A DNA stretch of 64,000 nt. It comes from Lysobacter sp. Root76. Lineage in GTDB: Bacteria > Pseudomonadota > Gammaproteobacteria > Xanthomonadales > Xanthomonadaceae. Position 1 is the stretch's first letter. Every line of letters begins with the position of its first letter. The DNA is taken from positions 128,233 through 192,232 of the forward strand of contig NZ_LMIK01000004.1 of the NCBI RefSeq assembly GCF_001428685.1, written 5' to 3'. Position numbers and translations under genes: made by a program. Below, one piece after another: positions 3,279 through 47,892 of this stretch. The notes beneath the pieces are model-generated. The model did no database searches. It saw only the letters and a list, made by a program, of their open reading frames with translations, and was not told where the DNA came from.

Positions 3279-3720
3279 TCGGGACCTCGCAGAGAGCCGC
3301 GCCGATCCGATAGGGCCGCCGATCCGATTCCGGCGACGACGCGCCATGGCGGCGCGCTTCCTAGGGCGATGCGCTTCCTGCGGCGGCGCGCTTCCTGTAG
3401 CGACGCGCTTCCTGTGGGAGCGGCGTAAGCCGCGATCGCGCCATTCCGGCTGCGACGCAGATCGGGGCCTGCACCGCTCACACGCGTGGCCCGGCTGGAT
3501 AGCACGGCCCCGACCCCGTCCCAGCCTCGTCTCGTCCTTGCGCACACTCAACGCAGCGCCGGCTTTGGGGTAGGAGCGACGTGAGTCGCGACCACAACAC
3601 TTCGGATACGGCGCGATCGCGGCTTACGCCGCTCCCACAGGGAAGGAACCATCGCGTCGTCGCATCGTGCGTAGTCCCTCGTCTTACACAGAAATCCAGG
3701 AAACAGCGCCACCGCACTGC
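3279..3720. repeat. Repeat-rich intergenic region
   Basis: No gene seen. Palindromic repeat cores lie at 3413-3443 (forward), 3567-3593 (a variant with GACGTGAGTC in the middle) and 3611-3640 (inverted). Between 3354 and 3420 a degenerate tandem repeat of about 17 bases is built on GCGCTTCCT, in four copies, the last running into the first palindromic core. This zone separates the nuclease gene from two convergent minus-strand genes. Confidence 0.8.
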
Positions 3721-7013: not shown

Positions 7014-7375
7014 GCGGAATCCTGTGCTGCGGCGAACATCCGGGCGCAAGGATAACGCGGCGACCGGTCGCTCTCGTGTGCAGCTTTGGGGTAGGAGCGA
7101 CGTGAGTCGCGACCGCGCCGCTTCGGAGACGACGCAATCGCGGCTTACGCCGCTCCTACAGGGGAGGGTTCGTTGGCTGAGCTGAACATCGACTCCATTG
7201 CATTACCGGTTCTTTGTAGGGGCGATGCGAGTCGCGGCCGCGATACTTCGGCTGCGGCGCGATCGCGGCTCACGCCGCTCCTACAGGGGAGGGTCCGCCG
7301 CGCGGTTGCGGGGCGCGCGGGCCTTTGGCGTTTAACCGTCTTCTGGCGTTTAACCGTCTTCGGCCCAATCGTCGC
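7014..7375. repeat. Intergenic repeat cluster and an 18-bp tandem duplication
   Basis: Four palindromic repeat cores lie at about 7087-7116, 7134-7163, 7213-7243 and 7258-7287, in alternating orientation. The unit TGGCGTTTAACCGTCTTC then occurs twice in perfect tandem (7326-7343 and 7344-7361), just before the end of the oxidoreductase gene. No coding sequence seen. Confidence 0.85.
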
Positions 7376-20359: not shown

Positions 20360-20632
20360 TTGAACGCCGCAACCGATCGCAACGAAGCTACCCGCAGCGG
20401 ACCGCGCGTCCCGCTGCGCGACCACGTGGCCACCTCGATCCGGCGCTACCTGGGCGACCTCAACGGCAGCGGTACCGAGAACCTCTACGAGATCGCCCTG
20501 CGCGAACTCGAAATCCCGCTGTTCGCCGAAGTCCTGCAGCACTGCGACGGCAACCAGAGCCGCGCCGCCTCCATGCTCGGCATCCACCGCGCCACCCTGC
20601 GCAAGAAGCTGCGCGAGTACGGGCTGGAGTAA
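20360..20632 (+). CDS. fis: DNA-binding protein Fis
   Basis: 90 residues (E. coli Fis has 98). The C-terminal helix-turn-helix ([20 protein letters not shown], then REYGLE) is the Fis/NtrC-type recognition unit, and the middle helices ([20 protein letters not shown]) form the dimer core. Fis is a nucleoid protein that bends DNA and activates rRNA and other growth-linked promoters. The most likely start is TTG at 20360, with AGGGGA eight bases upstream; no in-frame ATG fits. It is followed by a repeat region and then a minus-strand cassette. Confidence 0.9.
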
Positions 20633-21192
<560 letters not shown>

Positions 21193-21475
21193 ACAACTGG
21201 AATTCGAAATCGCGGCTTACGCCGCTCCCACAGAAAGCAGACTCGGAGCGAAACCCCGCCAGCAGACGGAGTTCGTGGTCGCGGCTCACGCCGCTCCTAC
21301 CCCAAGGCGAGTGACAAGAGAAAGTGACCCGCGCGCGCAGCGGGCGGAAGCTGTTGCTTAAGAACGAAACCAACGAAGTAACTGGGATTCGCGATCGCGG
21401 CTCACGCCGCTCCCACAGAAGGCAGAGGCGGGCCTAAAAAACGGAACCCACCCAGACGCGCCGCGCGCAAGTCGC
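21193..21475. repeat. Palindromic repeat cluster next to the lipid cassette
   Basis: Three palindromic repeat cores (about 21207-21233, 21272-21300 and 21391-21418), all in the GCGGCTTACGCCGCTCC orientation, alternate with fragments of the compound repeat core. They occupy the 3' flank of the minus-strand cassette that ends at 21476. Confidence 0.8.
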
Positions 21476-22435
21476 CTACACCCACCAGTACCGGATCAAG
21501 TGAAAGAACACCGGCGCCGCAAAACACACCGAATCCAGACGATCCAGCATGCCCCCATGCCCCTCGATCATCTGCCCCCAGTCCTTGATCCCGCGATCGC
21601 GCTTGATCGCCGACATCACCAGGCCGCCGTAGAACCCCATCAGATTGATGACCAGGGCCAGCGCCGCCGCCTGCAACGGCGAGAACGGCGTGATCCACCA
21701 CAGCGCCGCACCCAGCGCGGTCGCCGACGCGACTCCGCCGACGAAGCCTTCCAGGGTCTTGGACGGCGATAGCTTGGGCGCGATCAGGCGCCGCCCGCAC
21801 AGCTTGCCCCACACGTACTGCAGCACGTCCGAGGACTGCACCACGATCACCAGGAACGCGATCAGCAGCAGGTTGCGCCCCTCGTAGCCGGGGATATCCA
21901 GATTCAGCAAGGCCGGCACGTGCGAGATGCAGAACACGCAGATCATCAAGCCCCACTGCACCTTGGCTGCGCGCTCCAGATAGCGCGTGGTGTCGCCGCC
22001 CATCGTCGACACGATCGGTAGCAGCAGGAAGGCGTAGACCGGGATCAGCAGCGTGTACAGCCCGTACCAGTCGGTGTAGACCAGCCAGTACTGCAGCGGC
22101 AGCACCACGTAGAACGCCAGCGCCAGCGCGTAGTAATCGCTGCGCCGGGTCGGAGTCAGGGTGATGAACTCGCGCAGCGCGAACAGCGACACCAGCGCGA
22201 ACAGCACGATCACGCCGACGCGCCCGAGCAGGAAGGCCGCTCCCACCACCGCCGCCATCACCCACCAGGCGCGGATGCGCGCGGTCAGGTTGGCGATCAC
22301 CGGGCTGGGTCGGCCGCGCGTGCGCCAGCGCAGGAATTCGGATATCGCCGTGGCCAGCAACAGCACCGCGGCCACGCCCAGGAACAACAGCACAGGATGC
22401 GGCAACGCCTTGATCCGCTCGATCCACACCGTCAT
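21476..22435 (-). CDS. CdsA/YnbB-family phosphatidate cytidylyltransferase
   Basis: 319-residue inner-membrane enzyme with about eight hydrophobic helices. It makes CDP-diacylglycerol from phosphatidate and CTP. The signature near the C-terminus, SAIKRDRGIKDWG (from Ser275) and GHGGMLDRLD (ending Asp301), matches the CDP-diglyceride synthetase pattern, except that Glu291 sits where classical CdsA has the proline of PGHGG. From memory this Glu is typical of the second CdsA group that includes E. coli YnbB. Last gene of the six-gene cassette; ATGA overlap with the acyltransferase. A separate housekeeping cdsA would be expected elsewhere. Confidence 0.88.
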   Translation of the reverse strand: MTVWIERIKALPHPVLLFLGVAAVLLLATAISEFLRWRTRGRPSPVIANLTARIRAWWVMAAVVGAAFLLGRVGVIVLFALVSLFALREFITLTPTRRSDYYALALAFYVVLPLQYWLVYTDWYGLYTLLIPVYAFLLLPIVSTMGGDTTRYLERAAKVQWGLMICVFCISHVPALLNLDIPGYEGRNLLLIAFLVIVVQSSDVLQYVWGKLCGRRLIAPKLSPSKTLEGFVGGVASATALGAALWWITPFSPLQAAALALVINLMGFYGGLVMSAIKRDRGIKDWGQMIEGHGGMLDRLDSVCFAAPVFFHLIRYWWV

Positions 22436-23157
22436 GCCGCGCCTCCCGTTGCCGCCGCGGCCTGTTCCTCGGACAGGGCCAGCAGCGCATCGCGCGCGCG
22501 GTCCAGGAAGGCCTGCTTGCCTTCGTCGCTATGCAACCGCAACGGCTCGCCGAAGGTCGCCGTGCACAGTAGCGGCAAGGGCAGTAGCTTGCCCTTGGGC
22601 ATCACCCGCGCCAGGTTGTCGATCCACACCGGTACGAACTCCAGCTCCGGCCGCAGCCGGGCGAGGTGGTAGAGGCCGCTCTTGAACGGCAACAGCCCCT
22701 CACCCTGATTGCGCGTGCCCTCGGGGAACAGGATCAGCGAGGCGCCGCCGTCGACGGCATCGCACAGCGTCTGCAGCGCCTCGTGCTTGCGCCGGTCGGG
22801 ATCGCAGTGCGGGGCCGGGTTCGGATCGGTCGGGTTCGGATCGTTCGGACCGGCATCGTTCTGGCCCGCGGCGGGCTGCGCGGCATCGCGCTCGATCAAC
22901 ACGCCGTTGAATACCTCGCGGATCAGATAACGGCGCAAGGCATCGCGCTGCCAGTAGTCCGCGCCCGCGACCGGCCGGGTTTCCCCGCGCAGCGCCGGCG
23001 GCAATGCCGACCAGATCATCACGAAGTCGCCGTGGCTGACATGGTTGCCGTAATAGACGCGGCGGTCGCCCATGGGTGGGCAGCGCCACAAGGCGCGCGC
23101 GCCGGTCAGGGCGCGGATGGCGAAACTGAAACCGTCGGCGATCAAACCGCTGAGCAT
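22432..23157 (-). CDS. PlsC-like lysophospholipid acyltransferase
   Basis: 241 residues. The acyltransferase block I NHVSHGDF gives His39-x4-Asp44 and block III is FPEGTRN (144-150); GLLPFKSGLYHLA and VPVWIDNL follow as in the PlsC family. It is predicted to transfer an acyl group to a lysophosphatidate-type acceptor at the membrane face, supplying the CdsA substrate. Between the two blocks is an unusual insertion rich in Asn, Asp and Pro, encoded by a 15-base tandem repeat (22816-22845). It overlaps the next gene by four bases and the previous one by sixteen, so it is co-translated. Confidence 0.86.
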   Translation of the reverse strand: MLSGLIADGFSFAIRALTGARALWRCPPMGDRRVYYGNHVSHGDFVMIWSALPPALRGETRPVAGADYWQRDALRRYLIREVFNGVLIERDAAQPAAGQNDAGPNDPNPTDPNPAPHCDPDRRKHEALQTLCDAVDGGASLILFPEGTRNQGEGLLPFKSGLYHLARLRPELEFVPVWIDNLARVMPKGKLLPLPLLCTATFGEPLRLHSDEGKQAFLDRARDALLALSEEQAAAATGGAA

Positions 23158-23705
23158 GGGCAACGACTCCGGACCGGATCGGCAGCGACGCGGTCGTAAC
23201 AGGGGTAATGCGAGTTCATCGCGACTCGGCCGTCGAACGCCGCCGGCTCGTCGTCGGCATCCAGCGGCAGCGGCGCCAGCCACCATGCCGTCGCCAGCAA
23301 CAGCGCCTGCGCGACCAGGCAGATCGCCTGTCGCCGCAGCAGCTTGCGCGCGCCGCGCCAGCGCGCGGACCAGTCGCGGCCGGCGCGCTCGGCCGCCAGC
23401 AGGCCCAAGCGCTGCAGACTCGCATCCAGGCTGGCGGCAGCCTGCGCCGGATCGCGCTCGCACGCCGCGGCCAGCAGCAGGCCGGCGTCGAAATCCACCC
23501 GCGCCGCGTAATAGATCTGCAGCAAGCCGGCGATCACGCTCATGGCCAGGCCGTAGGCGGTCCAGCCTTCCAGCACGCCGAAGCCGAAGCCGGCGAATAG
23601 CAGCCACACGCCGGTCAGGGCCAGCAGCCCCAGCGACAGCGCATTCAAGCGCCGGCCCTGGCGCAGCAGCAGACCCATCGTGTGCAGGTCGAAGGACGAG
23701 GTCAT
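23142..23705 (-). CDS. Small integral membrane protein of the lipid cassette
   Basis: 187 residues with three probable transmembrane segments: LGLLALTGVWLLFAGFGF, GLAMSVIAGLLQIYYAA and AICLVAQALLLATAWWLA. A cytoplasmic or periplasmic loop (about 75-130) is charged and helical (DPAQAAASLDASLQRLGLLA). I recognise no family or catalytic motif. Start at 23705 gives a four-base overlap with the phosphatase gene, and its end overlaps the acyltransferase start by sixteen bases. Position between two lipid enzymes suggests an accessory or scaffolding role. Confidence 0.75.
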   Translation of the reverse strand: MTSSFDLHTMGLLLRQGRRLNALSLGLLALTGVWLLFAGFGFGVLEGWTAYGLAMSVIAGLLQIYYAARVDFDAGLLLAAACERDPAQAAASLDASLQRLGLLAAERAGRDWSARWRGARKLLRRQAICLVAQALLLATAWWLAPLPLDADDEPAAFDGRVAMNSHYPCYDRVAADPVRSRCPCSAV

Positions 23706-25045
23706 GTCGCGGGCGCTCCTGCCGGCAATGGTGTCGCGGCCGGCCCGGCGACGGCGCGCTCCAGCGCGCGCCGATGCGCATCGCCGAGTACGACCGCCGG
23801 CCGCGCGGCGCGCACCCGTTCGACTGCGGCCTCGACGGTATCGGCCCGGCCGCTGAGCAGCAACCAGGCCGCGACCGCCGCCGCGCTGCGCGAATAGCCC
23901 AAGGCGCAGCACACCAGCACGCGGCCCCGAGCACGCGCGGCCTCGATCGCCTGCGCCGCTTCGCGCAATGCCTGCGGTTCCGGCGCGACCAGGTCCAACA
24001 TCGGCCGTACCGCCGCCAACGGCAGCGTCGACGGCGCCGACAGTTCGGCGCAGACATCGACCGCGGCGTCGAACCCAGCGGTTTCGCTACGGCCGGGCAT
24101 GCGCCCCAACCAGACCCCGTCGGCGACTTCGACCGGCTGCGGCGCGCGCCGCGTCCACAGCCGCGAATTGATCCACGCGCCCCACAAGTAAGGCGCGTAC
24201 AGCCAACGCGCGGCCGGACTGAGGCGACCGTCGGCGCGCTTCTGGAAACCGTCCGCACCCAGCACGGCATAGTTCAGCGCCACCAGCAGCAGCGACAGCG
24301 CCGGCCATAGCAGCCACCAGCCAGCGCCGCGCACCATGTAGGCGAGCGCGGCGCAGGCGGCCGCGCCAAGCAGATACAGCGACGTCAGCCGCCAACGCTT
24401 CGGATCGCGCGTCCAGGCCGCCGCGCGCAAGGGCGAACGCGCATGCTCCGGCCATAGCCACACGCACAGCCAGCCCGCGAGCAGGCCGGTCGGCAGATCG
24501 ATGAAGTGGTGCTGATACGTGGTCAGCACCGACACCCCGATCAGGCCGAACCACAGGTGCAACAACCAGCGCCAGGCACCGCCCAGGTGCTGCGCAAACC
24601 GCACCCACAGCACGATCAGCAGCACGATGTGCAACGACGGCGCCTGGTTGAACGGCTTGTCGAAGCCCAGCAGCACGTCGAACATCCAGCCGAACGCGCC
24701 GTCGGTCTGCGGCCGCACGAAGGTGAACGTGAGCGGGAACGCCAGGAAGCAGGCGATCGCGATCAACTGCGCGGTCAGCAGGCGCAGAGCCTGATTGTCC
24801 AGCTCACGGCGGTCGCAGCAGACGAACAGCGAGATCCCGTAGAACAGGTCGATCGACCAGTACGGCACGATGGTCCAGGCCCAGAACGGAATCGCCCGCT
24901 CCCAACCGAACACGATGCTGGGCACGCCGACGCGCTGTGCCGCGACCGCGTTCGCATAGCCGTAGCTGAGGAAGAAGAACGGCCCCAGCAGCGCCAGCCA
25001 CAACAGCGCGCGCGCCCACGGCCGCCGGCCGCCGACCTCGCTCAT
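23702..25045 (-). CDS. YnbD-like PAP2 / dual-specificity phosphatase fusion
   Basis: 447-residue membrane enzyme with two phosphatase-type domains. The N-terminal multi-helix PAP2-type domain has PSLH at 136-139 and QHHFID at 178-183, the arrangement of inositol-phosphorylceramide-synthase-like proteins rather than the PSGH of classical lipid phosphatases. After further helices (about 220-265) a cytoplasmic domain ends with the C-X5-R loop CALGYSR (Cys380 to Arg386) of dual-specificity phosphatases. E. coli YnbD has the same fusion and similar length, from memory. It could dephosphorylate a phosphatidylglycerol-phosphate-like intermediate or transfer a head group. It overlaps both neighbours by four bases. 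Confidence 0.85.
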   Translation of the reverse strand: MSEVGGRRPWARALLWLALLGPFFFLSYGYANAVAAQRVGVPSIVFGWERAIPFWAWTIVPYWSIDLFYGISLFVCCDRRELDNQALRLLTAQLIAIACFLAFPLTFTFVRPQTDGAFGWMFDVLLGFDKPFNQAPSLHIVLLIVLWVRFAQHLGGAWRWLLHLWFGLIGVSVLTTYQHHFIDLPTGLLAGWLCVWLWPEHARSPLRAAAWTRDPKRWRLTSLYLLGAAACAALAYMVRGAGWWLLWPALSLLLVALNYAVLGADGFQKRADGRLSPAARWLYAPYLWGAWINSRLWTRRAPQPVEVADGVWLGRMPGRSETAGFDAAVDVCAELSAPSTLPLAAVRPMLDLVAPEPQALREAAQAIEAARARGRVLVCCALGYSRSAAAVAAWLLLSGRADTVEAAVERVRAARPAVVLGDAHRRALERAVAGPAATPLPAGAPAT

Positions 25046-26784
25046 TCGGCGACCCGCTGGGCCAGCGACACGCTGAAGATGCCCCAGCGGTCGATGCGTT
25101 GATCGAGCTTGCGGAAGCCGGCCGCGCGCACCAGCTCGTCCATCTCCGCCTGCGAGCGCCGCCGCATCACCCAGGCCTCGCCGCCGCGGTGGCTGGTCAG
25201 GGCACGGGCGATGAATTCCAGCTGCGGATGCCAGGGCTGGCCGGTGTAGACCAGATAGCCGCCCGGCGCGACCGCATCGCCGAGGCCGGCCAACGAACGC
25301 CGCACCAGGGCGTTGTCCGGGAACAACTCGTACAGGCCGGACACGATCGCCAGGGTCGGACGCGGCCTCAGCCCCGCCAGCGCGGCGCGGTCGAAGGCGT
25401 CGCCCTGCTCGAACTCGGCGACGCCGCCGGCGCCGAGTTCGGCGATCAGCGCGCGCCCCTGGCGCACGTTGAGATCGCTGTAATCGCGCAGGCGGATCGA
25501 ATCGGCGCCGCCGGCCAGCGCTTCCAGTACGTAGCGGCCGTGACCGGCCGCGATGTCGACCACGTCCACCGGCGCACCGGCCGCGCGCAGCCGCCGCATC
25601 GCCTCGCCCAGCAGTTCGTGCAGATGGGTGCGGCGCACGCGGATGCCGCGCCAACCGATCGCGTCGAGGTAGTTGCGGTCGACCATGCGCCCCAGCGGCC
25701 CGGCGCCGAGCGCCTTGTCGCGGTACACGTAGTCCAGGCTGCTGCCGGAATCGAAACCGGTTTCGAGCCCGGTGCGGATGCCCTCCGACAGCGAACCGCC
25801 GAAGCGCAGTCCCGCGCGCACGAAACGCCAGCGCAGGTCCTGCAGCGAATTCCGTTCCGGCGGCCAGGCCAGGCGCTCGGCTTCCTCGAAGCTGTGGCCG
25901 TGGCGATGCGCGTCCAGCAGCGAAGCCTGCTGCAACGGCTCTTCGAAACGCGCGCGCAGGAAACCGCGGATCTTGCTCAGCGCCTGGGCGCGGTCCTTTT
26001 CGCCCAGGGTGTCGTGGTAGAAGCCGGGCAGGAAGTGGCGCTCCTTGATCGTCGAACCCAGCCCCTCATAGAAGCGGTCCTGCGGTGCGCGATGGACGAC
26101 GAAATCCGAACCCGATACCAGCAACTGGGTCGGCACCCGGATCGCCTGGGCGTCGGCGACGATGCGGTCGGCGGTCTCGTACAGGCCCAGCAGCACGCGC
26201 ACCGAGATCGGCCGCGCGATCAGCGGGTCGCTGCGGTAGCTGGCGATGCGTTCGGGATCGTGCGTCAGCCACTGCGGCTGCACATAGCTGTTGACGAAGA
26301 AGTTGCCGCGCAGCTTCTGCATCAGGCCCAAGCCCGCGCGTGCGAACGGCACGTACAGCTTGACCTTGAACGCCGGCGAGGCCAGCACCAGCGCGCGCAG
26401 CTGCGGCGCGTAGTCGTGCGCCCAAGTCGCGGCCACCACCGCGCCCACGCTCTGCGCGATCAGCGCGGTGTCCTCCACCGCGATGCCGTGGGCCTCGCCG
26501 ATATGGGCGACGAAGCGGTCCAGGTCGCGCACCAGCGCCTCGAAGCCCGGCGCATCGCCGCGCGCGCCCGGCGAGCGGCCGTTGCCGCGCGCGTCCCAGG
26601 CGAAGAAATCGCAATCGTCCAGGCCCAGCTCGTCGACCAGGTGCGTGACCCGGCCGGAATGCTCGTGACCGCGATGCAGCAGCACCACCGCGCGCCGTGG
26701 GCCCTCGCCGCGCGCCGGCCAATGACGGTAGAACAGCTGGGTACCGTCGAAACTGGCGTAGTGGCGTTCCTGGTGTTCCCTCAT
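25042..26784 (-). CDS. YnbC-like alpha/beta-hydrolase fused to a SAM methyltransferase
   Basis: 580 residues, matching the recalled length of E. coli YnbC (about 585). Residues 1-285 are an alpha/beta hydrolase of monoacylglycerol-lipase or lysophospholipase type: VVLLHRGHEHSGR (oxyanion region), nucleophile Ser112 in AQSVG (first Gly of the elbow replaced by Ala), Asp227 (SGSD) and His257 (FYHDTLGE). Residues about 370-580 are a class I methyltransferase with motif I VVDIAAGHGRYVLEAL (408-423) and an SGLYELFPD segment. No signal peptide, so it acts in the cytoplasm or on the inner face. It may deacylate and methylate a lipid or soluble head group. Four-base overlaps on both sides. Confidence 0.85.
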   Translation of the reverse strand: MREHQERHYASFDGTQLFYRHWPARGEGPRRAVVLLHRGHEHSGRVTHLVDELGLDDCDFFAWDARGNGRSPGARGDAPGFEALVRDLDRFVAHIGEAHGIAVEDTALIAQSVGAVVAATWAHDYAPQLRALVLASPAFKVKLYVPFARAGLGLMQKLRGNFFVNSYVQPQWLTHDPERIASYRSDPLIARPISVRVLLGLYETADRIVADAQAIRVPTQLLVSGSDFVVHRAPQDRFYEGLGSTIKERHFLPGFYHDTLGEKDRAQALSKIRGFLRARFEEPLQQASLLDAHRHGHSFEEAERLAWPPERNSLQDLRWRFVRAGLRFGGSLSEGIRTGLETGFDSGSSLDYVYRDKALGAGPLGRMVDRNYLDAIGWRGIRVRRTHLHELLGEAMRRLRAAGAPVDVVDIAAGHGRYVLEALAGGADSIRLRDYSDLNVRQGRALIAELGAGGVAEFEQGDAFDRAALAGLRPRPTLAIVSGLYELFPDNALVRRSLAGLGDAVAPGGYLVYTGQPWHPQLEFIARALTSHRGGEAWVMRRRSQAEMDELVRAAGFRKLDQRIDRWGIFSVSLAQRVAE

Positions 26785-27425
26785 TCGCGACTCCCTGGAT
26801 TTGCGGCGTTCGCGGTCGCCGAACCGTGGGCCACGCCGGCGGACACCCGCCGCAGCACCGTCCATATGCACAACAGTCCGGCCAGGATCGCGACCAGTTC
26901 GGTCGCGCGGGCCCCGGCCCAGCCCAAGGCCAGCGCCAGGCCGAGCGCGCCGACCACGAAGGCGCGGTCGCTCTTGCCCATCGGCCCGTCGTAGCGGCGC
27001 GGTGCGCCGACGCTGGGGCCGAGCACGCCGGCGAATTCGGTCAGCGCCGCCAGCCCCGCGAACAGCAGCAGGGTCCAGGGCGCGACCCCGGGCACCGCCA
27101 GCAGCGCCAGGTACAGGGCGCTGTCGGAAACCACGTCGCACAATTCGTTGAGGTAGGCGCCCAGCCGCGATTGCTGGCCGTGTTCGCGCGCCAGCATGCC
27201 GTCGATCGCGTTCAAGGCCATGCGCAGGAACATCCACAGCGGCAGCGCCGCGAATACCCAGGGCTGTGCGCCGCCGCGCAGCGCGACCCAGGCCGCGACC
27301 GCCAGCGAACCCAGCCCCGCGACCAGGGTGATCTGGTTGGCGGTGACCCCCGCCGCGAACAGCCCGCGCACCAGCGGCCGCAGCAGCGCCTGGAAACGTC
27401 CCTTCAACGCATAGATCGATGCCAT
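26781..27425 (-). CDS. YnbA-like CDP-alcohol phosphatidyltransferase
   Basis: 214-residue polytopic membrane enzyme, first gene of the cassette. The CDP-alcohol motif is present in variant form: N72-x2-D75-G-x2-A79-R80-x8-G89-x3-N93-x3-D97-x3-D101. The usual first and third aspartates are Asn. From memory E. coli YnbA shows the same two changes, which points to a subfamily rather than decay. The enzyme should exchange CMP of CDP-diacylglycerol for an alcohol acceptor; the acceptor is unknown. ATG 27425 aligns with the short family N-terminus (CAGGGA lies just upstream); an upstream GTG at 27449 is possible. Its end overlaps the hydrolase start (ATGA). Confidence 0.85.
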   Translation of the reverse strand: MASIYALKGRFQALLRPLVRGLFAAGVTANQITLVAGLGSLAVAAWVALRGGAQPWVFAALPLWMFLRMALNAIDGMLAREHGQQSRLGAYLNELCDVVSDSALYLALLAVPGVAPWTLLLFAGLAALTEFAGVLGPSVGAPRRYDGPMGKSDRAFVVGALGLALALGWAGARATELVAILAGLLCIWTVLRRVSAGVAHGSATANAANPGSRE

Positions 27426-27700: not shown

Positions 27701-29290
27701 ATGACCTCCGATCGCTCGACCGGCACGCCGGTTCACATCCGCCGCGCCCTGCTGTCCGTGTCCGACAAGACCGGCCTTATCGAACTCGCCCAGGCCCTGT
27801 CCGCGCACGGCGTCGAACTGCTGTCCACCGGCGGCACCGCCAAGGCGATCCGCGACGCCGGCCTGCCGGTGCGCGACGTCTCCGAGGTCACCGGCTTCCC
27901 GGAAATGATGGACGGCCGGGTCAAGACCCTGCACCCGATCGTGCACGGCGGCCTGCTCGGCCGCGCCGGCATCGACGACGCGGTGATGGCGCAGCACGGC
28001 ATCGGCGCGATCGACCTGCTGGTGCTGAACCTGTATCCGTTCGAGCAGGTCTCGGCCCGCGCCGACAGCTCGTTCGAGGACATCGTCGAGAACATCGACA
28101 TCGGCGGCCCGGCGATGCTGCGCTCGGCGGCCAAGAACTTCGCCCGCGTCGCGGTCGCCACCGATCCGGCCCAGTACGCCGGCCTGGTCGAGGAACTCGC
28201 CGGCAACGGCGGCGCGCTGTCGGCGCAGACCCGCTTCGCCCTGTCGGTGGCCGCGTTCAACCGCGTCGCCCAGTACGACGCCTGCATCGCCAACTACCTG
28301 TCCTCGCTGGACGCCGACGGCGCCCGCAGCCAGCAGTTCCCAGCCCAGCAGCACAGCAACTTCGTCAAGGTCATGGATCTGCGCTACGGCGAGAACCCGC
28401 ATCAGCAGGGCGCGTTCTACCGCGACCTGTACCCGGTGCCGGGCACCCTGGCCACCTTCAGCCAGCTGCAGGGCAAGGAACTGAGCTACAACAACCTCGC
28501 CGACGCCGACGCGGCCTGGGAATGCGTGCGCCAGTTCGAGCGCCCGGCCTGCGTGATCGTCAAGCACGCCAACCCCTGCGGCGTGGCCGAGGGCGTGGCC
28601 TGCGGCGACGCCTACGAACTGGCCTACGCCACCGACCCGACCTCGGCCTTCGGCGGCATCATCGCCTTCAACACCCGCCTCGACGCGGCCACCGCCAAGG
28701 CCATCCTCGACCGCCAGTTCGTCGAGGTGCTGATCGCGCCGGACTACGACGAGGCCGCGCTGGCCTACTGCGCCAAGAAGGCCAACGTGCGCGTGCTGCG
28801 CATCCCGCACGGCGACGGCAGGAACAACTTCGACGTCAAGCGCGTCGGCTCGGGCCTGCTGATGCAGACCAGCGACATCCGCGAAGTCGGCCGCGACGAG
28901 CTCAAGGTGGTGACCCGGCGCGCCCCCGACCAGGCCGAACTCGCCGACCTGCTGTTCGCCTGGCGCGTGGCCAAGTACGTCAAGTCCAACGCCATCGTCT
29001 ACGCCAGGGATCACCGCAGCATCGGCATCGGCGCCGGCCAGATGAGCCGCGTGGTCTCGGCCAAGATCGCCGCGCTCAAGGCCGAGGAAGCCGGCCTGGT
29101 GGTGCCCGGTTCGGTGATGGCCTCCGACGCCTTCTTCCCGTTCCGCGACGGCATCGACGCCGCCGCCGCGGCCGGTGTGCGCGCGGTGATCCAGCCGGGC
29201 GGCTCGATGCGCGACGGCGAGGTGATCGCCGCCGCCGACGAACACGGCCTGGCGATGGTGTTCACCGGCGTGCGCCACTTCCGCCATTGA
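27701..29290 (+). CDS. purH: Bifunctional AICAR formyltransferase / IMP cyclohydrolase
   Basis: 529 residues, as in E. coli PurH. It catalyses the last two steps of IMP synthesis in the cytoplasm. The N-terminal methylglyoxal-synthase-like cyclohydrolase domain ([54 protein letters not shown]) is followed by the transformylase domain with [15 protein letters not shown], the catalytic Lys-His. The C-terminus ends FTGVRHFRH as in the family. ATG 27701 is chosen for the position of the first domain and the -10 box at 27664. The next gene follows two bases after the stop. Confidence 0.97.
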
Positions 29291-31291: not shown

Positions 31292-31321
31292 CTGTAGGAG
31301 CGGCGTAAGCCGCGACCGCGC
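31292..31321. repeat. Dispersed palindromic repeat
   Basis: One forward copy of the TGTAGGAGCGGCGTAAGCC type followed by GCGACCGCG, placed between the convergent purD and the minus-strand coiled-coil gene. Confidence 0.8.
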
Positions 31322-47530: not shown

Positions 47531-47892
47531 ACCTTCGCCGAACCTAGAAGTTCGCGGTCGCGGCTTACGCTGCTCCTACCCCAAGGCGAGTGGCAAGAGA
47601 AAGTGCCCCGCATGCGCGGCATGCGGAAGCTGTTGCTTAAGAACGAAACCAGCAAAGCAGCCCGAATTCGCGATCGCGGCTCACGCCGCTCCTACCCCAA
47701 GGCTAGAGCGAAACAGGCGCGGCCGCCGGACTGGCGATCGCGGCTCACGCCGCTCCCACAGAAGGCAGAGGCAAGGGCGGATCGGAAGCGATACCGCCAT
47801 CGGCAGGCGAGGTTCGCGGTCGCGGCTTACGCCGCTCCTACCCCAAAGCACAGCGGAAGGCGGAGCAAGAACAAAGCCTCCCCAGCCCCAAA
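47531..47892. repeat. Palindromic repeat cluster upstream of the RND operon end
   Basis: Four palindromic cores (about 47555-47583, 47670-47699, 47735-47762 and 47816-47845), alternating with fragments of the compound repeat such as AAGAGAAAGTGCCCCGC at 47594. All have the GCGGCTTACGCCGCTCC-type orientation. No gene. Confidence 0.8.

Follow-up and report, generated by a model that had tools for sequence, protein, structure and literature searches.

A conserved Ynb-type gene cassette with an altered CDP-alcohol phosphotransferase in Lysobacter sp. Root76

Gene layout and conservation of the cassette

In a 64,000-nucleotide stretch of the Lysobacter sp. Root76 genome (contig NZ_LMIK01000004.1, positions 128,233 to 192,232; hereafter the window), the stops and starts of the open reading frames delimit six minus-strand genes packed as a cassette (21476-27425), which we call A, C, D, m, t and B (w1 to w6; Table 1). 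Successive genes overlap by 4, 4, 4, 16 and 4 bases, the four short overlaps being ATGA, exactly as an original prediction made from the DNA letters had described. By blastp, and each time over most of the length, A was 45% identical to YnbA of E. coli K-12, C 56% to YnbC, D 43% to YnbD and B 41% to YnbB. Homologues of all four, including the YnbC and YnbD fusions, are found in a single cluster, and the kinship with E. coli ynbABCD proposed in that prediction holds, at 41-56% identity and with the same fusions. Its domain names also agree with Pfam, except that m (w4) matches no Pfam or NCBIfam family and that the PAP2 half of D (w3) is only weakly matched. Among the matches listed for the C gene, the nearest named relative was Lysobacter sp. 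cf310 (95%). A scan for promoters and terminators upstream of A found none, the scan itself being uninformative.

Table 1 Genes and active-site stretches of the cassette, in window coordinates
Feature	Position	Strand	Family match or remark
A (w1), YnbA-type CDP-alcohol phosphotransferase, 214 aa	26781..27425	-	CDP-OH_P_transf (PF01066)
C (w2), YnbC-type alpha/beta hydrolase + methyltransferase fusion, 580 aa	25042..26784	-	Hydrolase_4 + Methyltransf_20
D (w3), YnbD-type PAP2 + dual-specificity phosphatase fusion, 447 aa	23702..25045	-	DSPc, weak PAP2_3
m (w4), small membrane protein, 187 aa	23142..23705	-	same position in relatives
t (w5), PlsC-type acyltransferase, 241 aa	22432..23157	-	PF01553, E=1.8e-13
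B (w6), YnbB-type CDP-diacylglycerol synthase, 319 aa	21476..22435	-	PF01148 (CTP_transf_1), E=3.1e-69
A, altered signature N72-x2-D75-G-x2-A-R-x8-G89-x3-N93-E94-x2-D97	27135..27212	-	N72, N93 and E94 invariant across loci
D, PAP2 active-site stretch H139...H179-x3-D183, usual Arg = V173	24497..24631	-	
D, phosphatase loop C380-x5-R386	23888..23908	-	

Regions containing C were collected from 58 sampled genomes, 80 named genome records, E. coli and the window, giving 140 regions, 132 of them distinct by their C protein; the 80 named records were the best 80 among the matches listed, and near relatives and Pseudomonas weigh heavily among them. An unbroken A-C-D-m-t-B row was present in 88 of the 132 loci, or in 91 when three loci with a doubled D match are included. 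The 88 rows comprised 73 plain ones, 14 with an extra upstream acyltransferase-like match (12 on the same strand, 2 on the opposite one) and 1 with a second B match. Another 28 loci (27, plus 1 with an upstream match) showed the order A-C-D-m-g-a2-t-B, and the remaining 13 fell into 12 arrangements (A-B-C-D occurred twice) that were partial, reordered or at a contig end. Four-base start/stop overlaps (ATGA, GTGA or TTGA) recurred among the 132 loci at the C-D (77), D-m (70), t-B (49), A-C (22) and m-t (4) boundaries. The genes, instead of lying scattered in relatives, keep an order that recurs across other families and classes of Pseudomonadota, and the claim that they form one conserved unit was borne out.

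The methyltransferase family of C (PF12147) exceeded its cut-off in 19 of the 20 genus genomes, 28 of the 149 from the family (one weakly), 13 of the 369 from the class (10 strongly) and 17 of the 299 from the phylum, each sample including the window's genome. In the phylum sample a strong A match (E below 1e-45) was found in 25 genomes, among them all 17 with C, the two counts being taken to refer to the same 299 genomes because their handles match. Seven of the 8 genomes with A and no C keep A beside B, and 6 of them also keep t: A, B and t lie together in L218, L220, L221, L222, L223 and L224, and a broken A lies with B in L225, whereas the eighth genome has a lone, distant A (L226). A Caballeronia plasmid likewise carries A, t and B, with neither C nor D adjoining. 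A, B and the acyltransferase are the core of the unit and, since A-B-t persists in genomes without C, C-D-m is a module that can be dispensed with; six-gene cassettes carry it between A and t. A second module, g-a2, is inserted between m and t in 5 of the 6 named Xanthomonas records and in many Lysobacter; g is a TIGR04222 membrane protein (118.5 bits against a cut-off of 43; for example L013 6322-7758, minus strand) whose tail is rich in Gly and Cys, and a2, at 27.9 bits against a cut-off of 22, is a further CDP-alcohol transferase. The comparison thereby reduces the unit to a minimal set of A, B and t, with two removable modules (C-D-m and g-a2), and it corrects the original prediction in two points: the acyltransferase is no mere addition to ynbABCD, and head-group methylation is at most a putative step, in a unit from which C can be absent.

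The active site and acceptor of transferase A

A has the fold and matches the family model (PF01066) of the CDP-alcohol phosphotransferase (CAPT) superfamily, for which the eight-residue signature D1xxD2G1xxAR...G2xxxD3xxxD4 is described in the available part of PMC4634129. For residue counts, proteins shorter than 70% of the window's protein were dropped, leaving 130 A, 132 C, 126 D, 122 t and 127 B sequences from the 132 loci. The full signature was absent from all 130 A proteins: D1 and D3 are replaced by asparagines (N72 and N93), the second of them followed by a glutamate (E94), and all three residues are invariant. D2 and D4 (D75 and D97), both glycines and the alanine are kept in 130 of 130, the arginine is changed to lysine in 2, and the NxxT cytidine contact is also retained in A. 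This altered site goes beyond the original prediction, which had missed it.

Of 92 PF01066 matches listed, 51 were read, corresponding to 49 non-Ynb loci, the window's A and L188. All 49 non-Ynb family members have an aspartate at both changed positions, including L153 and L199, for which the automatic readings gave a shifted D-G-I-D-G and the aspartates were counted by eye. Thirty-two of these controls were higher-scoring or belonged to the window's own genome, and are thus largely PgsA-like; the other 17 were hand-picked (12 low-scoring, 5 middling). L188, which showed an N/N motif, turned out to be a Ynb A-B-t cluster, and L226 is a distant A whose motif is unreadable and which lacks cassette genes around it. 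In the longer cassettes, the second transferase has mostly S-D, N-D or N-E at the corresponding site.

Replacement of two of the four motif aspartates in every A protein could be taken to indicate a catalytically dead CAPT that senses or shuttles CDP-diacylglycerol (CDP-DAG), the unit then regulating lipid flux, and a D-to-N change at the fourth motif position is reported to nearly abolish the activity of phosphatidylinositol-phosphate (PIP) synthase (PMC4634129, in part). However, that fourth aspartate is intact in A, and whereas dead enzymes usually drift, here D75, D97, both glycines, the alanine and the NxxT contact are kept and the replaced residues are themselves invariant, making this role quite improbable. 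A is instead expected to be active, with E94 replacing the missing aspartates as metal ligand, and N72, N93 and E94 constitute a specific residue prediction.

The fold and the phosphate-binding arginines of A resemble those of PIP synthase. The acceptor-phosphate arginines R155 and R195 of Mycobacterium tuberculosis (Mtb) PgsA1 align with R154 and R193 of A, invariant in 130 of 130, and R152 of Mtb PgsA1 aligns with the invariant K151. In the window's A, no basic residue corresponds to R94, K135 or R137 of the Mtb enzyme, and the position of R94, a residue reported to be conserved in inositol-phosphate users, is occupied by V, I, L, A or M in all 130 A proteins. Since the basic pair R154/R193 is kept and the R94 counterpart is gone, the acceptor is probably phosphorylated but other than inositol phosphate and, as the hosts span from E. 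coli to Shinella, it should be common to most cells.

The resemblance to PIP synthase and the NCBIfam results had prompted an inositol lipid as candidate product, that is, phosphatidylinositol synthesis as in Bacteroides BT_1522-1526 (transferase, phosphatase and AUR1-like transferase). Archaetidylinositol-phosphate and PIP synthase models matched 24 of the 24 members scanned, and both an adjoining phosphatase and a weak PAP2_3 match would suit such a route. Nevertheless, A scores far under the cut-offs of the PIP synthase equivalog models NF045883 (55.3 of 170 bits) and NF040950 (71.4 of 180 bits), and inositol-phosphate synthase (PF01658) was found in 0 of 20 genus genomes, with 6 of 14 controls positive, and in 7 of 149 family genomes, of which only G061 is also among the 27 with a strong C. 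With these low scores, the rarity of the synthase and the loss of R94, the candidate was dropped as highly improbable. A second, conditional route to phosphatidylglycerol, in which A would use glycerol-3-phosphate, D would dephosphorylate, and C and m would modify, is also unlikely. A scores 20.5 of 109.1 bits with the PgsA model TIGR00560, below the cut-off.

Partner proteins and the proposed lipid route

C combines PF12146 (E=3.6e-69, amino acids 29-264) and PF12147 (E=1.2e-148, amino acids 272-577). Its hydrolase half is closest to monoacylglycerol lipases, and both the Ser-Asp-His triad (S112, D227, H257) and the S-adenosylmethionine (SAM)-type glycine motif (D410, A412, G414) are present in 132 of 132 sequences. 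D shows the Cx5R loop and the fold of a dual-specificity phosphatase, with a match to PF00782 (DSPc) above the cut-off (E=6.8e-10) and a predicted model of pLDDT (predicted local distance difference test) 91.0; the cysteine and arginine of the loop are present in 123 of 126, the other 3 having gaps. The fold matches listed were dual-specificity phosphatases only, and are uninformative for the PAP2 half, where PF14378 (PAP2_3) stays just below its cut-off and the two models differ little, PAP2 matching 16 of 21 and PAP2_3 15. The PAP2 triad (H139, H179, D183) is complete in 126 of 126, and the position of the phospholipid phosphatase 1 arginine is occupied by V in 124 and by T in 2, with no arginine in any of the 126; a His/His/Asp triad lacking the phosphatase arginine would suit an AUR1-type transferase, for or against which the near-equal PAP2 and PAP2_3 matches do not speak. 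In t, the His and Asp of HX4D were found in 121 of 122 (one unreadable) and the Glu and Gly of FPEGTR in all 122, and in B the residues S275, K278, R279, K284, D285, H293, D298 and D301 are common to 127 of 127. The meanings given to the motifs of C, D, t and B beyond the cited papers are presumed.

The cassette is a real and widely conserved biosynthetic unit, already catalogued as ynbABCD, whose head-group transferase is unusual and strictly conserved. We consider, with a probability of roughly 0.6, that it is a Ynb-type unit that would make a dedicated phospholipid, apart from bulk phospholipid synthesis, on a common and probably phosphorylated acceptor that would later be dephosphorylated and modified; the dedicated lipid of the original prediction appears, as far as the sequences go, to be the most economical reading. 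From these data we infer the step order, the acceptor class and the roles of C, D, t and m as follows. Lysophosphatidic acid would be converted by t into phosphatidic acid and this by B into CDP-DAG, from which A would transfer the phosphatidyl group to the small acceptor. The dual-specificity phosphatase domain of D would strip the acceptor phosphate, and a second action of D on the product may come from its PAP2 domain; C, which joins a lipase to a SAM methyltransferase, would trim and/or methylate this product, and m would be an accessory membrane protein.

The earlier statement that ynbABCD has no settled product was incomplete, as published work ascribes CDP-DAG synthesis to YnbB and links this enzyme to the glycolipid MPIase (PMC6362211 and PMC7018664, both in part). 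YnbB cannot replace CdsA for bulk lipid (PMC6362211, PMC7018664) and, under CdsA depletion, it restores MPIase but not phospholipid (PMC7018664; also PMC10881803, in part); failure in bulk phospholipid synthesis is as expected of a dedicated CDP-DAG synthase. According to the same part of PMC6362211, overproduced YnbB raises MPIase in E. coli, formation of N-acetylglucosamine-pyrophosphate-diacylglycerol is reported for E. coli YnbB and, when yeast Tam41p is expressed, loss of YnbB worsens the build-up of membrane-protein precursors. These reports speak for a route to MPIase or a similar pyrophosphate-linked glycolipid, in which B, and perhaps A, would join CDP-DAG and a sugar-1-phosphate into sugar-pyrophosphate-diacylglycerol, to be cleaved or recycled by the PAP2 domain, and the phosphate-binding arginines retained in A, without the inositol-linked one, are compatible with it. 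On the other hand, YnbA has 0 occurrences in the available part of PMC6362211, although B clusters with A in most loci examined, and ynbB deletion alone leaves MPIase unchanged there. Besides, the WecF family (PF07429) was found in 0 of 20 genus genomes, the E. coli control being positive; on the assumption that MPIase needs WecF, it is unlikely that the cassette as a whole has a conserved part in MPIase formation, and we regard this route as rather doubtful.

Several points weigh against a dedicated phospholipid. Conserved gene order speaks for a shared function, not for its chemistry, and the two missing aspartates could mean that A binds CDP-DAG without transferring it. The alignment is weak around PIP-synthase residues 130-150, which makes the mapping of the acceptor pocket tentative there, and deletion of ynbB alone does not alter growth either (PMC6362211, in part). 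Furthermore, among the 25 phylum genomes with a strong A, the reading of A is interrupted by a stop in 3 (G803, G310 and G622), indicating that the unit also decays, and the dispensability of C and D in some genomes makes a single product for all of them uncertain.

As a more tentative extension, YnbA might represent a new catalytic CAPT subclass, with asparagine for two metal-binding aspartates and the charge shifted by one residue, making an undescribed class of phospholipid in many Pseudomonadota including E. coli, and the MPIase role of YnbB might be a side effect of feeding CDP-DAG to YnbA. An active A would mean that the metal chemistry held essential for the CAPT superfamily has an alternative form, and that E. 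coli makes a phospholipid absent so far from its inventory.

Genomic site and known systems

The cassette is flanked by fis (20360-20632, plus strand) and purH (27701-29290, plus strand). In 38 cassette regions from the genus and family, purH was found in 33 and fis too in 30 of those; in relatives devoid of the cassette, the distance between fis and purH is 56 to 741 bases in 13 of 14, and in the other, G035, no fis was detected up to 1.5 kb from purH. The fis-purH adjacency proposed in the original prediction is supported, but its reading of the cassette as an insertion has to be set against loss: the site is shared by several genera and cassette divergence tracks that of purH (Spearman 0.50-0.74, 43 loci). 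Such a correlation fits old residence with repeated loss, and recombination at the site could also produce it. Four family cassettes without a nearby purH (L040, L044, L047 and L049) have more divergent C proteins (757-821 bits, against about 967 bits or more for purH-linked C proteins outside the genus) and are perhaps separate acquisitions.

The window also contains a dispersed repeat around GTCGCGGCTCACGCCGCTCC, with 16 matches versus 0.01 expected (21209-21413, 222-364, 3417-3635, 7094-7281, 31297-31316 and 47557-47838), three copies of which lie between fis and the cassette together with a 124-base direct repeat; a run of the 6-base unit GCCGTT (20869-20952) is located downstream of fis. 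Ten neighbour proteins outside the cassette, compared at five other loci, revealed no shared partner. On a 19-kb plasmid of Burkholderia ambifaria (L228), the six-gene set lies near the cellulose genes bcsB and bcsZ and a diguanylate cyclase. In E. coli ET12567 (L231 301-2244) an IS4-like element interrupts ynbA, and each of the four further E. coli records listed also has an insertion sequence under the match.

Compared with PIP synthases (Mtb PgsA1, RsPIPS), A has asparagine for the first and third aspartates and glutamate after the third, and has lost R94 and K135. The Bacteroides BT_1522-BT_1526 cluster likewise joins a CAPT, a phosphatase and an AUR1-like enzyme but, unlike the cassette, includes an inositol-phosphate synthase and yields inositol sphingolipids; the available part of its description names no dedicated acyltransferase, CDP-DAG synthase or methyltransferase (PMC9246714). 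With the MPIase pathway (CdsA/YnbB) the cassette shares B, a YnbB homologue by similarity and context; it differs in its CAPT, on which PMC6362211 is silent in the part available, and in a genus without the enterobacterial common antigen (ECA) fucosyltransferase family. Regarding the E. coli genes, a review describes ynb as cold-induced (PMC10881803, in part), and a 2021 transposon screen gave ynbB as a candidate that then proved unnecessary for phosphoglyceride-linked ECA (PMC8609368, in part); ynbC and ynbB appear in tables only, of genes mutated in persister work (PMC13313352) and of a LysR regulator (PMC9068703), respectively. Among the literature matches listed, no paper dealt with the function of YnbA, YnbC or YnbD. 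The E. coli ynbA-ynbB-ynbC-ynbD cluster (b1408-b1411) has the same four homologues and the same two fusions, in the order A-B-C-D and without the acyltransferase and m inside. In 4242 of 5426 E. coli genomes, at least 80% of this cluster is covered by a match: the Ynb cassette is carried by most E. coli, yet the published work found concerns YnbB only.
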